Positions 2,962 through 64,000 of a stretch of 64,000 bases of DNA are shown here, piece after piece. Within the stretch, counting starts at the first letter, position 1. Every line of letters begins with the position of its first letter. Position numbers and translations under genes: made by a program. The DNA lies in the NCBI GenBank assembly GCA_019285715.1, contig CP079108.1, forward strand, positions 1,503,001 through 1,567,000, in the 5' to 3' direction. A model generated the notes under the pieces. It ran no database searches, was not told where the DNA came from, and was given only the letters and a program-made list of their open reading frames with translations. Source of the stretch: Sphingosinicellaceae bacterium. Lineage in GTDB: Bacteria; Pseudomonadota; Alphaproteobacteria; Sphingomonadales; Sphingomonadaceae.

Positions 2962-3171
2962 ATGACACCATTATTGACGAAGATTGAACGTTACCTTCGG
3001 GCGACGGCAACGCCCCCGAGCCGGTTCGGTCGCGAAGCGGCACGTGACCCGCGATTCGTGTTCGATTTACGCAACGGACGCGAGCCCCGCGACACGACGG
3101 TCACCCGGGTTCTCGCCTTCATCGATACGGTCGGTTCGGCCTCGATCCCCCACCAGAAGGCCGCACGATGA
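2962..3171 (+). CDS. Small conserved hypothetical protein (69 aa)
   Basis: Encodes 69 residues beginning MTPLLTKIERYLRATATPPS and containing the phrase RDPRFVFDLRNGREPR. It reads like a short HTH-type or phage-regulator-like protein (an IERYL..T.TPPSRFGR opening followed by a basic patch), but no clear domain can be assigned. Its stop overlaps the next ATG (ATGA), so the two small genes are probably translationally coupled. It is divergent from the S24 repressor and may be one of its targets. Function unknown. Confidence 0.6.
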   Translation: MTPLLTKIERYLRATATPPSRFGREAARDPRFVFDLRNGREPRDTTVTRVLAFIDTVGSASIPHQKAAR

Positions 3172-3542
3172 GCGACCGCCTGCTGCACCTGCCGCTCGCC
3201 GGCGTCCCGGGGCACCTGGTGCGCCGGCTCGCGGCGCTGATCGCCGGCACCGACGAGCCCGTGCCGATGTTCCCGATGCTGGTCCTCGAGGCGGTCACCA
3301 CCCGGCCGTGGTCGAGCGCGACCTTCGAGGGCCAGCGCCACCGGCTCGACCTGCGCCTCCACGGCGACGCCGCGTGCATCGGTGCGGCGCTCGACCGGCT
3401 GATCGAAGTGCTACCGGAGGCGGAGTTCGAGCTGCCCCGGCAGATCGTCGCCGAGGCCAGGTTGACCTCGCTCAGGGTCGATCCCGACCCGGCAGTGGCG
3501 GCGCTGGCGTTGACCATAGAAGTCTTGACGGTCACCGACTGA
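3168..3542 (+). CDS. Conserved hypothetical protein (124 aa)
   Basis: A 124-residue soluble protein with no signal peptide or transmembrane helix. It has a leucine/alanine-rich N-terminal helix, then a predicted beta-rich segment around WSSATFEGQRHRLDLRLHG, and ends with ALTIEVLTVTD. It overlaps the previous gene by 4 nt (ATGA) and precedes topoisomerase IB by about 80 nt. I do not recognise the family. The ligand-binding-like alternation of strands does not support a specific call. Confidence 0.6.
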   Translation: MSDRLLHLPLAGVPGHLVRRLAALIAGTDEPVPMFPMLVLEAVTTRPWSSATFEGQRHRLDLRLHGDAACIGAALDRLIEVLPEAEFELPRQIVAEARLTSLRVDPDPAVAALALTIEVLTVTD

Positions 3543-3624
3543 CGAAGTTGCGCCGACGACGTTGCGAATTGCCGCACTTGGCCCGCCGCCGGAACGAAGC
3601 GCGGCGGCGGGCCGTTTCGGCGCA

Positions 3625-4589
3625 ATGCTCACCTACGGCGATACGTCCGAGCCCGGGATTACGCGGCGCAAGCGCGGCAAGCACTGGCATTACTTCATGC
3701 CCGACTGCATCCGCATCACCGCGCCGGACGAAATCGCGCGGTTGAACAAGCTCGCGGTGCCGCCGGCCTACCAGCGGGTGTGGTATTCGCCCGACCCCGA
3801 CAGCCACTTGCAGGCAATCGGCTACGACGACCGCGGCCGCCGCCAGTACCGCTACCACCCCGATTTCCGTCGCGCGCAGGACGGGCAAAAATACGACCGC
3901 TGCGTCGAGTTCGGATCGTCACTGCCGCTGGTGCGCGCCCGCGTCGAGGCCGACATGAAGCTGTCCGGACTGCCCCGCGACAAGGTGCTGGCCGCGGTCG
4001 TCCGCCTGCTCGACCAGGGCCATGTCCGCGTCGGCAACGAAGCGTATGCGACCGAGAACAAGAGCTTCGGCGCGACGACGCTGCGCAACCGCCACGGCGC
4101 GGTCCGGGGCGACACGGTCAAGCTCGACTACCGCGGCAAGTCCGGCAAGCAGCAGCAGGTCAGCATCACCGACAAGGCGCTCGCGAAGATCGTCCGCCGC
4201 TGCCAGGACCTGCCGGGCCAAGCGCTATTCCAGTATGTCGCCGACGACGGCACTCCGCACCGGATCGGTTCCGCCGAGGTAAATTCCTACATCAAGGCTG
4301 CGATGGGCGACGACTTCTCCGCCAAGCACTTCCGCACCTGGGGGGCGAGCGTCATCGCCTTCGAGACGCTGATCCGCACCCGCGCGCCGCTAACGCTGAA
4401 GGCCGTGCTCGAGCCGGTGGCGGAGGCGCTCGGTAATACGCCTGCAATCAGCCGCAAGTCGTACGTCCACCCGAAGCTGCTCAAGCTGGTCACCGAGGGC
4501 CACGCGTTCGAACTGGCGGGCACGAAGCTGCCGCGGTCGACGCAGTGGCTGACGGGGGTGGAGCGCGGGCTGATCGGGTTGCTGGAGAC

Positions 4590-59355: not shown

Positions 59356-60930
59356 TTATGAGCGGCTGAAAAGGTCGCCACGGTCGTCGGCGAAATGGTC
59401 GGCCGTGCGCAGGGCGAGCGCCTGCAGCGTGAAGGTCGGGTTGACGCTGCCCTCGGTCGGGAACAGGCCCGAGCCGGCGACGTAGAGATTGTCGAGCCCA
59501 TGGACCCGGCCGAAGCTGTCGGTAACCGACGACTTTGCGGCGCGCCCCATGATGGTGCCGCCGGCGAAATGCGCGGAGCCCATCGGGGTGTGCCAGGTCT
59601 CGGTCGCGCCGCCGGCCTTGAAGATCGCCGCCCCCTCGTCGCGCATCGCCGCCCACAGCCGCTTGGCATCGTCGGAGAAGCGGTGGACCAGCCGGGCCGG
59701 GCGGACACCCCAGGCGTTAGTGCCGTCGCCGAGTTCGACGCGGTTGTCGGGGTTTGGCTCCGCCTCGCACATGCCGATCATGTTGGCGGCGTGGCGCGCG
59801 GCGCGGTGCATAAAGTCGTCGAGTGCCGCGCCGTTTAGGTCCATCCGCGACGCCGCGAGCCCGGCGAGGTCGTTGGGCTTGATCGACGGCGCGATGAGCC
59901 ATTGCCGGCTGCCAAACGCGCCCGGCGTCGCGGTCTTGGCATAGTCGTCGTGACAGATCAGGTGCGCCCCGGTGACCCCGCGATGCGGCTCGGTCGCTTC
60001 CGGAAAGATGCCGAGGATCTGGATCAGCCCGTGCGTCATCAGGTTGCGACCGACGAGGCCAGCGGCATTGCCGACGCCGGTCGGGTGCACCGGGCTGGCG
60101 GAATTGAGCATCAGTGCCGGATTACCCACTACCGAGCCGGCGAGGATGACGAGGCGCGCCGGCTGGACCGCCAGCCGTCCGGCAGCGTCGCGGTACTGGA
60201 CCGCGTCGATGCGCTTGCCGGTCGAAGCCACCAGGTGCGTCACCGGCGTGTCGACCAGGATGCGCGCGCCGGCGGCCTCAGCGCGGGGCAGGTCCTTCGC
60301 CAGCGGGTTCGCCAGCGCCATGATCGGACAGCCGGCGTCGCACCAGCCGTCGTACTGGCACGGGGGCCGGCCTGCGTACTCGACCGAGTTGACCGCCATC
60401 GGGGCGGGCGCGGTGCGCTTGCCGACGGCGGCAAAGGCGCGGGCGAGCAGGCGGCCTTGCGCCAGAGGGTCGAGCGGCGGCATCGGATAGGGTGCGCCGG
60501 CCGGCCGCCAAATCTCGGCTGCAGCATCGCCCGAGATGCCGACCTCGGCCTGGATACGGTCGTAGAACGGGCGCAGTTCGTCATAGCCGATCGGCCAGTC
60601 GAGGCCGCGACCGTGGTCACGCCGCATGCTGAAGTCGGCGGCGTGCATCCGCGGCCACGTCGCATAATGGTGGAGCGCGGCCCCGCCGGTACCCCAGCCG
60701 GCGTTGAAGCCGAAGCCGACCGGGTCGGCCCCGGTGGTGGCGACCGGCGGACCACCCCAACGCAGGCGACGGCTCCAGATCTGCGAACTGACGAGGTCCT
60801 GCGCGTCACGTCGTGGGCCAGCCTCGAACATCACCACGGAGCGACCCGCCTCCGCCAGCCGCGCGCCGAGGACTGCGCCCACGGAGCCGGCCCCGACGAT
60901 GGCGACATCGATGGTTTGCTGCACGCTCAC
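59356..60930 (-). CDS. GMC-family oxidoreductase (dehydrogenase large subunit)
   Basis: A 524-residue FAD enzyme of the GMC family. The N-terminal ADP-binding motif is VAIVGAGSVGAVLGARLAEAG; mid-protein CQYDGWCDAGCPIMALANPL resembles the Cys-rich segment of gluconate/sorbitol dehydrogenase large subunits; the C-terminal active-site region is TWHTPMGSAHFAGGTIMGRA and GSGLFPTEGSVNPTFTLQAL. The GTG at 60930 overlaps the small-subunit stop (GTGA), so the two are produced together. The likely substrate is an alcohol or sugar acid; electrons would pass to a respiratory acceptor. Confidence 0.92.
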   Translation of the reverse strand: MSVQQTIDVAIVGAGSVGAVLGARLAEAGRSVVMFEAGPRRDAQDLVSSQIWSRRLRWGGPPVATTGADPVGFGFNAGWGTGGAALHHYATWPRMHAADFSMRRDHGRGLDWPIGYDELRPFYDRIQAEVGISGDAAAEIWRPAGAPYPMPPLDPLAQGRLLARAFAAVGKRTAPAPMAVNSVEYAGRPPCQYDGWCDAGCPIMALANPLAKDLPRAEAAGARILVDTPVTHLVASTGKRIDAVQYRDAAGRLAVQPARLVILAGSVVGNPALMLNSASPVHPTGVGNAAGLVGRNLMTHGLIQILGIFPEATEPHRGVTGAHLICHDDYAKTATPGAFGSRQWLIAPSIKPNDLAGLAASRMDLNGAALDDFMHRAARHAANMIGMCEAEPNPDNRVELGDGTNAWGVRPARLVHRFSDDAKRLWAAMRDEGAAIFKAGGATETWHTPMGSAHFAGGTIMGRAAKSSVTDSFGRVHGLDNLYVAGSGLFPTEGSVNPTFTLQALALRTADHFADDRGDLFSRS

Positions 60931-61481
60931 CAGTCGGTCTCCGGCTCGATGTGCGCGAGGTAGTCGATACCGAGGCGAGCAAAGCCGGCGCGTGTGCCGT
61001 AGGCAATGTCGACCGCATCGAGGCGCACCGCGAACAGGAACAGTGGCGGCGGCGGACCCTGCCAACCGGACGGCGCCGGGCCGTTCAGGGCGGCCAGGAC
61101 CGTGTTCCAGCGAGGATCACTCGTCGGCGGCGCGGCTCCGTGCAGACGCTGCAACGAGGCCAGTGCGGAGCGGTAGAAAGCGGCATAAGGCGGCGCCACG
61201 TCGAGGTAGCGAAGCGCAAGCAGGCTCTCGGCCGCCGGCAGTGCGAGATGGTGGTCGACATAGTGAACTAGCCCCGCAGCCCGCGACGGCGTGGCGATCG
61301 CCTCGCCGAGACCGGCCAGCCAGGCTGCCTCCACGGGGTCGAGTATCGCGAACCCGGCGCTCGCCGCGGTAGCCTCCGCCGACGACATCCATGCCGGTGT
61401 TCCCGCGACGCTCGCCAGTACCAGACCGATCGTGGAGTTCCGGATCACGTCGCGACGCGAAGGTGCCGGTTGGCCAGTCAT
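60927..61481 (-). CDS. Gluconate-2-dehydrogenase subunit 3-like small subunit (Tat-type)
   Basis: A 184-residue protein with a twin-arginine-like N-terminus (SRRDVIRNSTIGLVLASVAG) and the subunit 3 fold (DPVEAAWLAGLGEAIATPSR, HYVDHHLALPA). This small subunit often guides export of the GMC large subunit, which lacks its own signal. It overlaps that gene by 4 nt. It is divergent from the LLM monooxygenase (about 170-bp gap with no gene). Confidence 0.85.
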   Translation of the reverse strand: MTGQPAPSRRDVIRNSTIGLVLASVAGTPAWMSSAEATAASAGFAILDPVEAAWLAGLGEAIATPSRAAGLVHYVDHHLALPAAESLLALRYLDVAPPYAAFYRSALASLQRLHGAAPPTSDPRWNTVLAALNGPAPSGWQGPPPPLFLFAVRLDAVDIAYGTRAGFARLGIDYLAHIEPETDW

Positions 61482-61650
61482 GCCGGGCCGGCTTTATCGG
61501 ACACCACACGCACCGCTGGCCGGCATGTCTCCACGATCGCTGCAGCGCCTCCAAGTCGTTGATGAAAAAGCTATCAATGATTCGTAATCTCGACAATGCT
61601 TCAGACCTAAATTACTTTTTCGTCAGCAATAATCGATCGGGGTGTGTCTA

Positions 61651-62763
61651 ATGGACAGCAGGCGCGGCATGGCGCGAGCCGACCATTTCAAGCTCGGGAC
61701 GTTCGCCAGCAATTGCTCGGGCGGAATGTCGGTGACGACCGTGCCGGAACGCTGGTCAGGGAGTTGGGACGACAACCTGCGGCTGGCGCGCCTGCTCGAC
61801 GCGGCGGACATCGACTTCATGCTGCCGATCGCGCGCTGGATCGGCTACGGCGGTGCGACCAATTTTCACGGCAACGTGCTGGAAACGATGACCTGGGCAG
61901 CGGGGCTGCTGGCAGCGACGAGCCATATCGACATCTTCGCGACGATCCATACCGTCGCCAATCACCCGGTCATCGTGGCCAAGCAGATGGCGACCATCGA
62001 TGCCATCGGGCATGGCCGTGCCGGGCTGAACATCGTTGCGGGCTGGAACGAGCCCGAATATCGAGCCCTCGGCATGACGCTGCCGCAGGATCACGAAACG
62101 CGCTACGCCTACGCGCAGCAGTGGTTCGACGTGGTCGAGGCACTGTGGAGCCGCGACGGCGCCTTCGACTGGAACACCGAACACTTCAAGCTTGCGGGCG
62201 TCCACGGCGACCCCAAGCCGCTGTTCGGACGGCCGCCGATCATCAGCGCCGCCGGCTCCGAAATCGGCCGCGATTTCGCCATCCGCAACGCCGACTTCCT
62301 GTTTACCCCGACGATCGACATCGCCCGCACCACCGCCGAAGTCGTCGATCTGAAAGCGCGTGCACGCGACGCCGGGCGTGACATCGAAGTGCTGACCTTC
62401 GCCCATGTCGTCTGCCGCCCGACGGAGCGCGAGGCGCTGGATTATGTCGCGCGCTTCGCCGGTGACGCGATCGACATGCCCGCGCTCGACAACCTCGTAC
62501 GGCTGCAGTTTGCCCATGCCCAGTCGTTTCCGCACGACCTGCTGGCGCTGATCCGCGACCGAATGGGTATGGGACATGGCGGCTATCCGCTGATCGGCAC
62601 ACCGGAGCAGGTCGCCGAGGGATTGATCGCGCTCCACGCCGCCGGCCTTGGCGGGACGACGCTGTCATTCGTCGACTATGCGGAGGAGTTTCCCTATTTC
62701 CGCGACACCGTGCTGCCGATGCTCGAGGCCGCCGGCCTGCGCCAGCCGCGTGGCAGAAATTAA
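61651..62763 (+). CDS. LLM-class flavin-dependent monooxygenase
   Basis: A 370-residue bacterial luciferase-like enzyme. Hallmarks: HFKLGTFASNCSGGMSVTTVPERW, DFMLPIARWIGYGG, MATIDAIGHGRAGLNIVAGW, PLFGRPPIISAAGSEIGRDF and a C-terminal GTPEQVAEGLIALHAAGLGG. Relatives include dimethylsulfone and alkanesulfonate monooxygenases and the pyrimidine oxygenase RutA; the substrate here is not known. The ATG at 61651 is used; a GTG 9 nt earlier is possible. It is divergent from the small-subunit/GMC/TonB receptor operon and may act on the same compound. Confidence 0.92.
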   Translation: MDSRRGMARADHFKLGTFASNCSGGMSVTTVPERWSGSWDDNLRLARLLDAADIDFMLPIARWIGYGGATNFHGNVLETMTWAAGLLAATSHIDIFATIHTVANHPVIVAKQMATIDAIGHGRAGLNIVAGWNEPEYRALGMTLPQDHETRYAYAQQWFDVVEALWSRDGAFDWNTEHFKLAGVHGDPKPLFGRPPIISAAGSEIGRDFAIRNADFLFTPTIDIARTTAEVVDLKARARDAGRDIEVLTFAHVVCRPTEREALDYVARFAGDAIDMPALDNLVRLQFAHAQSFPHDLLALIRDRMGMGHGGYPLIGTPEQVAEGLIALHAAGLGGTTLSFVDYAEEFPYFRDTVLPMLEAAGLRQPRGRN

Positions 62764-63333: not shown

Positions 63334-63528
63334 ATGGCCATCGAAAAGCCCGGTGCGCCGCGCGTAGGCCGGATGGTCTACCACTCGGCGATCCGGGAAA
63401 CGATCGAGCCGGGTGACCTCGACCGCATGCGCGCGGTGCTCGAGCGAGCCAAGGCGTTGGAAGCGGAATTTGGCGGCATGGAGGAAGCGATCGCCCGCCT
63501 CGAGACCGCGATCAAGGACGCGAGTTGA
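63334..63528 (+). CDS. DUF1843-like small protein, putative RiPP precursor
   Basis: A 64-residue protein with the DUF1843 pattern: RMVYHSAIRETIEPGDLDRM followed by a helix (RAVLERAKALEAEF) and a C-terminal Glu/Lys-rich helix (MEEAIARLETAIKDAS). The family is made of short proteins of unknown role. Here its stop is 3 nt before the ATG of a radical SAM gene, the usual position of a precursor peptide next to its maturase. There is no Cys; candidate modified residues would be Tyr, His or Asp/Gly positions. A modest GAGG lies upstream of the ATG. Confidence 0.72.
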   Translation: MAIEKPGAPRVGRMVYHSAIRETIEPGDLDRMRAVLERAKALEAEFGGMEEAIARLETAIKDAS

Positions 63529-63531
63529 GCG

Positions 63532-64000
63532 ATGTCGAAGGCGGCGACCCGACTTCCAAGACGCTTCTTCGAAGCGAGCGAGCAGGAGAGGCGGGTCCCG
63601 GTCAGTGTCGTCTGGGAACTGACCGCCGCCTGCGATCTCGGCTGCGCCCATTGCGGTTCGCGCGCGGGACGGCGGATGGCAGCGGAGCTGGACACCGCCG
63701 AGTGCCTGCAGCTGATTGACGAGATGGCGGCGCTCGGTGTCCGCGACGTGGGCCTGATCGGCGGCGAAGTATATCTGCGCAAGGACTGGCTCCAGATCAT
63801 CCGCGCCGTCCGCGCTGCAGGGATGGACTGCTCCTTGCAGACAGGCGGGCGCCACATGACCGCCGAACGGGCCGGTGCCGCTGTCGAGGCTGGCGTGCAG
63901 AGCATCGGAGTATCGGTCGACGGTCTTCGAGAGACGCACGACCAGCTTCGCGGCGTGCGCGGCAGTTTCGATCGGGCGATAGAGTTGCTGTCGACGCTGC
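63532..64000 (+). CDS. Radical SAM protein, putative peptide maturase (partial)
   Basis: The frame is open from ATG 63532 to the window end (156 codons), so the C-terminal part, where a SPASM domain would be, is unseen. The radical SAM cluster motif C-x3-C-x2-C is at Cys34, Cys38 and Cys41 (CDLGCAHC), followed by the GGE-type motif LIGGEVYLRKDW and GVSVDGLRETHDQLRG. This is the layout of PqqE/MoaA-like peptide-modifying enzymes. It starts 3 nt after the DUF1843-like gene, so the two are almost certainly cotranscribed. Confidence 0.85.
   Translation, partial: MSKAATRLPRRFFEASEQERRVPVSVVWELTAACDLGCAHCGSRAGRRMAAELDTAECLQLIDEMAALGVRDVGLIGGEVYLRKDWLQIIRAVRAAGMDCSLQTGGRHMTAERAGAAVEAGVQSIGVSVDGLRETHDQLRGVRGSFDRAIELLSTL

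Follow-up and report, generated by a model that had tools for sequence, protein, structure and literature searches.

The window analysed here, a stretch of 64,000 nucleotides (G000:C1:1503001-1567000), ends within what its sequence identifies as a GDL-motif cassette: a DUF1843-like substrate gene, the gene for a TIGR03913 radical SAM maturase and, just past the window's edge, a zinc-ribbon piece. Comparison of this cassette with its relatives leads us to propose, as the best explanation of the sequence data as a whole and one that we consider probable though by no means secure, that the enzymes of TIGR03913 mature DUF1843 domains by acting on their tyrosine, most likely through the excision of tyramine. 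The original prediction of a RiPP locus at this site missed the invariant tyrosine on which this proposal turns and the kinship of the enzyme with spliceases; an in-frame TAG codon lies beyond the window, out of reach of that prediction.

The proposed substrate is encoded on the plus strand by an ORF at 63334-63528 (ATG to TGA), which translates into 64 amino acids with no cysteine. It is separated by 3 nt (GCG) from the ATG of the radical SAM gene at 63532, so that the arrangement first described, a 64-residue DUF1843-like ORF followed after 3 nt by a gene with a CxxxCxxC motif, is borne out by coordinates and by Pfam. The peptide falls short of the Pfam DUF1843 cut-off (E 5.8e-4; 20.8 bits against 23.3), but the label is right because a relative from Sphingomonas ursincola KR-99 (L005/L055), 47% identical to it across 51 amino acids, passes with 36.6 bits. 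The peptides of loci L003 and L057 have no Pfam match. Codon 63379-63381 specifies Tyr16, an invariant alignment column and the proposed modification site, whilst 63412-63420 encodes the GDL motif (Gly27-Asp28-Leu29), both on the plus strand. In a structure model of the peptide this motif opens the confident helical part, made up of helices 29-46 and 50-63; the first 20 residues, Tyr16 included, are modelled with low pLDDT (50 and 59 by block), with Tyr16 placed in a low-confidence helix (11-24) and not in a loop. When this model served as the query of a fold search, nothing matched at E <= 0.001. We rejected a sactipeptide or ranthipeptide for lack of cysteine; thioether chemistry based on cysteine is unlikely for such a peptide, which supports the earlier reading on this point.

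The first 156 codons of the maturase gene (63532-64000, plus strand) lie in the window, to the end of which the frame is open, and the downstream DNA was followed in locus L001, where coordinates are those of the window minus 61000. There the frame continues to L001 3752 (window-equivalent 64752). The radical SAM motif CDLGCAHC (residues 34-41; 63631-63654, plus strand) falls under a Pfam Radical_SAM match of 70.7 bits, and a GGE motif, SAM-binding in the radical SAM superfamily, is present at residues 77-79 (63760-63768, plus strand) and invariant in our enzyme alignments. Extending the gene, as had been suggested, revealed a SPASM domain (Pfam SPASM, 27.7 bits). The cysteines that are invariant in 29 enzymes are, in the numbering of L055, C25, C29 and C32 together with C257, C275, C317, C320, C326, C330 and C347, and the window's enzyme has the CxxxCxxC motif and all seven SPASM cysteines. 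With the stop read as X, its best NCBIfam model is TIGR03913 (500.3 bits; residues 7-394, model positions 2-390), below the curated cut-off of 591.75 bits, and its second is TIGR04103 (431 bits). For the S. ursincola enzyme (L055), a structure model with a mean pLDDT of 84.3 finds its best solved folds with Foldseek in PqqE, SkfB, BlsE and SuiB; by sequence, the best solved-structure matches are BlsE, SkfB and PqqE. MoaA, named at the outset as the case that would overturn the prediction, is ruled out, with MoaA models at ~55-57 bits against 500 for TIGR03913 and with PqqE and the RiPP maturase SkfB as best folds for the S. ursincola relative; the TIGR03913 score and the fold matches likewise rule out other cofactor-synthesis enzymes.

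Overlapping the end of the enzyme gene is a third plus-strand ORF (L001 3749-3943, window-equivalent 64749-64943) for 64 amino acids with two CxxC pairs, which matches TIGR03913 model positions 418-477. The different frame of this zinc ribbon raised the suspicion that the enzyme gene is frameshifted at its 3' end, which we rejected because relatives have a separate ORF too; these include genomes G251 and G001, whose enzymes likewise miss the TIGR03913 cut-off. Across 80 related loci (see below), a ribbon with the CxxC...CxxC pattern is fused to the enzyme in 69, separate in nine and not seen at the enzyme in two, L104, which ends with its contig, and L131, which has the ribbon in its candidate substrate. 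The family models of Pfam and NCBIfam name no RRE in the third ORF, but a zinc ribbon instead.

Codon 176 of the window's enzyme is an in-frame TAG (L001 3057-3059, window-equivalent 64057-64059), and because the maturase is cut by it the cassette is probably inactive in this genome. Identity to L055 is 63.9% before the TAG and 64.9% after it, and near-invariant residues are kept at 52 of 58 positions before and 68 of 75 after. Since the sequence after the TAG is still so well conserved, inactivation of this copy was probably recent, unless the TAG is a base error. Seven of the eight genes of the window's clade have no interruption, the TAG being confined to the window's own copy, and from these sequences we read it as a lesion both recent and isolated, within a lineage whose system seems to be altered but otherwise still functional. 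It is possible, if doubtful, that the cassette of the window still works, its TAG being a sequencing error or a codon that is read through: the lack of visible decay downstream fits this, whilst the quality of the assembly, a single contig with 99.57% completeness, tells against an error but says little about a single base. Genes for transposases that by eye resemble those of IS3 and IS110 are found at L001 9438-12357, at least ~5.5 kb downstream of the cassette, and are a sign of genome turnover around the broken copy.

Whether this linkage extends to other genomes was examined at several levels. Within the window's phylum, TIGR03913 is found at E <= 1e-60 in three of 398 genomes, G000 among them, and all three have an adjacent DUF1843 or DUF1843-like gene. 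DUF1843 is found at E <= 0.001 in five of the 398: two, G001 and G424, also have TIGR03913, and the remaining three have a partial match in a 750-774-aa frame; the copy in G000 fell below threshold in this genome-wide search. A PF08898 profile search of G000 gave no match and neither did control genomes, making it uninformative on absence. In the family of G424 (198 genomes), TIGR03913 occurs in three genomes, each with three DUF1843 domains, and DUF1843 in five, the other two having a partial match in a 742-aa frame. Matches in the 742-774-aa frames, which are confined to model positions 13-50 or 14-50, were treated as unrelated. Within the window's own family, three of 298 genomes have TIGR03913 matches of 497-533 bits (G251, 533; G000, 500; G001, 497), and the next score is 84.

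Using a five-enzyme alignment as query, we scanned contigs of GTDB species and confirmed 387 relatives, of which we kept the 80 with enzymes most similar to that of S. ursincola (L055-L134), a sample that is uneven, with many Pseudomonas, and from which the window's own genome is perhaps absent. With a profile built up by iteration from an initial five peptides, a DUF1843-like domain was found in 77 of these 80 loci, always upstream and on the same strand, and the linkage is therefore not chance. An annotated Azospirillum record also has a GDL maturase beside DUF1843 genes. The RiPP-type pairing first proposed thus gains from the linkage and from the SPASM enzyme; it is no fresh candidate, however, because NCBIfam already names the enzyme after the GDL-motif peptide. 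Nor is DUF1843 always a small precursor, as had been supposed. It also forms the C-terminal tail of larger DUF1842 proteins, two of them in G424, the one genome for which the presence of DUF1842 in long forms was established, and about half of 200 DUF1843-like domains lie in long frames (more than 120 residues upstream of the tyrosine in the open frame, short forms having fewer), with short standalone frames about equally common. The first peptide of G424 is nearly that of Pseudomonas lini L098 in a 45-sequence alignment.

Neighbouring genes were grouped by BLAST, and for each of the 25 largest clusters one example was assessed by eye. A transporter or protease nearby had been suggested as a further check, and the result was mixed: MFS-like and MATE-like neighbours recur within Pseudomonas (nine loci) and Nitrospirillum (four loci), that is, within one genus each, and an amino-acid-permease-like gene recurs in six Pseudomonas loci, with one immediately before the DUF1843 genes of G424 (L051 3742-5307), but no protease recurs among the 25 clusters. 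One cluster spans five loci, four of Acidobacteriota and one of Nonomuraea, with some of its genes on the opposite strand. Its member at L063 matches TIGR03975, a RiPP radical SAM C-methyltransferase family, with 551 bits (cut-off 281.85); of the five loci, among which are also L064 and L105, the TIGR03975 scan covered L063, L060 and L078, and gave 77 bits at L060, where the gene is cut by the end of the locus, and a sub-cut-off 116 bits at L078. In the window itself, the cassette is preceded by a luciferase-like flavin monooxygenase gene (61642-62763, plus strand; translation only), and the cassette in L005 is followed by a monooxygenase of similar appearance (2964-4157), which may be chance. 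Further upstream, on the minus strand, are a likely GMC-type oxidoreductase gene (59356-61065) and a small twin-arginine-like gene (60927-61481) overlapping its start, a pair (59356-61481) that from the translations resembles gluconate 2-dehydrogenase pairs.

A single residue of the DUF1843-like domain does not vary. Tyrosine fills aligned column 7 in 200 of 200 domains (the window's own peptide being outside the 200), whilst the next best column among those filled in all 200 is a glycine present in 187. Tyrosine remains at 100% in 79, 33 and 19 representatives chosen at 80, 60 and 50% identity, and Tyr16 is the sole invariant column in a MAFFT alignment of 45 diverse peptides. The profile seeds contained the tyrosine, such that a subgroup without it could escape. 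A profile lacking the first 11 columns gave 202 matches, 200 of them with tyrosine at the expected place and the two exceptions being second partial matches at L074 and L078; as this profile was built from the same sequences, it is a control on the alignment and no independent sample.

The residue that follows the tyrosine is glycine in 97 of the 200 domains, alanine in 95, arginine in five, methionine in two and aspartate in one, compared with a baseline of 7.7% glycine and 10.2% alanine after 4205 tyrosines in open frames of at least 100 codons at the same loci. Long forms have mostly alanine (83, with glycine in 16 and arginine in two) and short forms mostly glycine (81, with alanine in 12, arginine in three, methionine in two and aspartate in one), and the commonest domain order, seen at 37 loci, is one short Tyr-Gly form and two long Tyr-Ala forms. 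Tyr-Gly is present in 68 of the 77 DUF1843 loci, Tyr-Ala only in three and neither in six (L055-L059 and L133), all of which belong to the window's clade. Counting the three loci without DUF1843, there are Tyr-Gly or Tyr-Ala candidates in 74 of the 80. Beyond the 80 loci, the three DUF1843 genes annotated in Aureibacter (Bacteroidota) encode Tyr-Ala, Tyr-Ala and Tyr-Gly sites, whilst the two of Azospirillum B510 encode Tyr-Gly and Tyr-Met. The site in the window's own peptide is Val-Tyr-His, which departs from the Xaa-Tyr-Gly of splicease substrates.

By sequence, the TIGR03913 maturase is closely akin to TIGR04103, the family taken to include PlpX. PlpX (WP_019503880.1) was characterised jointly with PlpY, an RRE, and IPR026482 is, we assume, the same family as TIGR04103, which would place PlpX within it. 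The assignment of PlpX to IPR026482 is made in a review (PMC10533398/PMC11002830). Together with PlpY, PlpX cuts tyramine out of Xaa-Tyr-Gly, with MYG and LYG as natural sites (PMC10533398, PMC11002830), at the cost of about 135 Da (C8H9NO; PMC10533398), and the FtsZ tags tried included GPIRPLYGLPI, which is tabulated as unmodified at that place (PMC10533398/PMC11002830). A plasmid of Nostoc sp. C057 (L135) carries an enzyme that matches both models (TIGR04103, 853 bits; TIGR03913, 414 bits) and is 45.6% identical to the window's enzyme; the gene order is a Nif11 precursor ending in ALYGLPPELF, the TIGR04103 enzyme and a 71-aa ORF. A 40-row tree places a group of Nostoc, L131 and Tropicibacter (95/91) inside the DUF1843-associated enzymes, and L118 and L132 outside them (92/97). 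Nesting of the Nostoc group among GDL enzymes is only tentative, given the long branches of Nostoc and Tropicibacter and the use of a distant outgroup.

Each of the three loci without recognised DUF1843 has an Xaa-Tyr-Gly protein just upstream of the enzyme, found by eye and with no statistic attached. In the two from Myxococcaceae the candidate substrate has two [LM]YG repeats and no Pfam DUF1843 match (L118 3387-3968, MYG twice; L132 3363-3905, LYG and MYG). The third, from Lujinxingia (L131 3544-3945), encodes, beside a TIGR03913-like enzyme, a protein that looks unrelated and has both a zinc ribbon (CPSC...CPFC) and an acidic tail containing VYGAPL, possibly a fusion of recognition module and substrate. 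Outside the 80, a plasmid of Tropicibacter oceani (L137) encodes a maturase relative with an N-terminal zinc ribbon, alongside, by annotation, two radical SAM genes, a trypsin-like peptidase and an M23 metallopeptidase; this locus has no recognised DUF1843 and no clear substrate, an FYGLPP in a phosphotransferase being probably chance.

How might such a maturase work? The helical GDL domain, lying C-terminal to the target, would be recognised by the enzyme as a follower rather than a leader, with the zinc ribbon possibly helping to bind it, and the 5'-deoxyadenosyl radical would then attack the invariant tyrosine. In Tyr-Gly and Tyr-Ala forms, tyramine would most likely be excised, leaving an alpha-keto-beta-amino residue as with PlpX. 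The loci lacking DUF1843, Aureibacter, the Nif11 precursor of Nostoc and the RiPP C-methyltransferase neighbour at L063 all count in favour of this explanation. Against it are the Tyr-Ala of 95 of the 200 domains, the Tyr-His, Tyr-Asp or Tyr-Arg of the window's own clade, the position of Tyr16 in a low-confidence helix and not a loop, the recognition of a zinc ribbon but no RRE such as PlpY, the sub-cut-off scores of the window's own peptide and enzyme, and the absence of a clear substrate at Tropicibacter L137. We know of no splicease site with Tyr-Ala.

Some of these points would suit a different radical reaction at the same tyrosine, such as a C-C or ether crosslink, beta-hydroxylation or desaturation, with the kinship to PlpX accounting for the choice of site but the product being another. 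Related SPASM enzymes do carry out differing chemistry, nearly half of the domains have Tyr-Ala, and the sphingomonad enzymes are set apart from all others. The window's enzyme forms one clade (100/99) with those of L055, L133, L057, L003, L056, L058 and L059, the peptides of which have aspartate, histidine or arginine after the tyrosine and never glycine. All eight of these enzymes lack 17 residues whose conservation among the remaining 77 reaches 90% or more, five of them (E63, Q186, G231, S277 and T280 in L055 numbering) being found in 77 of 77 elsewhere, and specificity or reaction may have changed in this clade along with the loss of glycine or alanine after the tyrosine. Telling against a different reaction is the occurrence of Xaa-Tyr-Gly in unlike scaffolds (Nif11, DUF1843 and the L131 protein) beside related enzymes, which is what a common reaction predicts, and we regard the alternative as rather unlikely. 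Still less likely is that the domain serves in recognition or assembly, its tyrosine and GDL kept for that role whilst the enzyme modifies the DUF1842 part or another protein: a DUF1842-DUF1843 protein was chosen as a possible self-assembly module on the ground that DUF1843 paralogues recur within operons, but is likely monomeric (PMC10994174), short standalone DUF1843 frames, about as common as long ones, offer little else to modify, and one fixed residue in an otherwise variable domain is what a reactive site would be expected to show.

Published work touches on these proteins from other sides. The structure of DUF1842 has been solved, with the DUF1843 part not resolved in the structure as described (PMC10994174). 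According to a study of Chromobacterium, a DUF1842/DUF1843 cluster is co-expressed with a GDL maturase gene and up-regulated with quorum sensing, and was assigned by its authors to a radical SAM/SPASM system, 'XYE' (PMC12114271). In B. thailandensis, DUF1842 and DUF1843 genes are listed as 'Up' in a table of an exponential-to-stationary transcriptome (PMC12322963). Our search, which covered mainly open papers, found no report linking DUF1843 or GDL to splicease chemistry or to any reaction, although a prior mention is possible. The invariant tyrosine and the kinship with spliceases turn a domain of 'unknown function' into a concrete prediction that can be tested by mass. Going further than the tyramine-excising reading itself, we would offer as a speculation that DUF1843 is a portable splicing tag, used alone or on DUF1842 proteins, whose tyrosine is excised or rearranged by a radical SAM enzyme by way of the follower domain, and that the sphingomonad branch has moved to Tyr-Asp, Tyr-His or Tyr-Arg whilst its enzymes changed to match, with a new reaction or specificity as the outcome. 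Should the main, tyramine-excising proposal be true, the editing of protein backbones at tyrosine would extend to proteins of ordinary size in Pseudomonas, Burkholderia, Chromobacterium and other bacteria, including the products of those genes reported as up-regulated in Chromobacterium and B. thailandensis.

Set against known systems, the window's cassette is closest to the TIGR03913 GDL system, sharing the match to model positions 2-390, the upstream substrate family and the zinc-ribbon homologue at 418-477. It differs in its sub-cut-off score, its ribbon on a separate, overlapping ORF, the absence of DUF1842, its Tyr-His site and the TAG. With PlpXY and TIGR04103 (nif11-class peptide radical SAM maturase 3), likeness lies in the Xaa-Tyr-Gly/Ala that most GDL substrates share with the Nif11 core; there, however, a Nif11 leader precedes a C-terminal core, whereas here the substrate is DUF1843 with the tyrosine N-terminal to the confident helices, the accompanying piece is a zinc ribbon rather than PlpY, and the window's own peptide has Tyr-His. 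PqqE, SkfB, SuiB and anSME, which are among the best Foldseek matches of the S. ursincola enzyme model, have the same combination of radical SAM and SPASM domains but only 13-22% identity, and act on other substrates with other chemistry.
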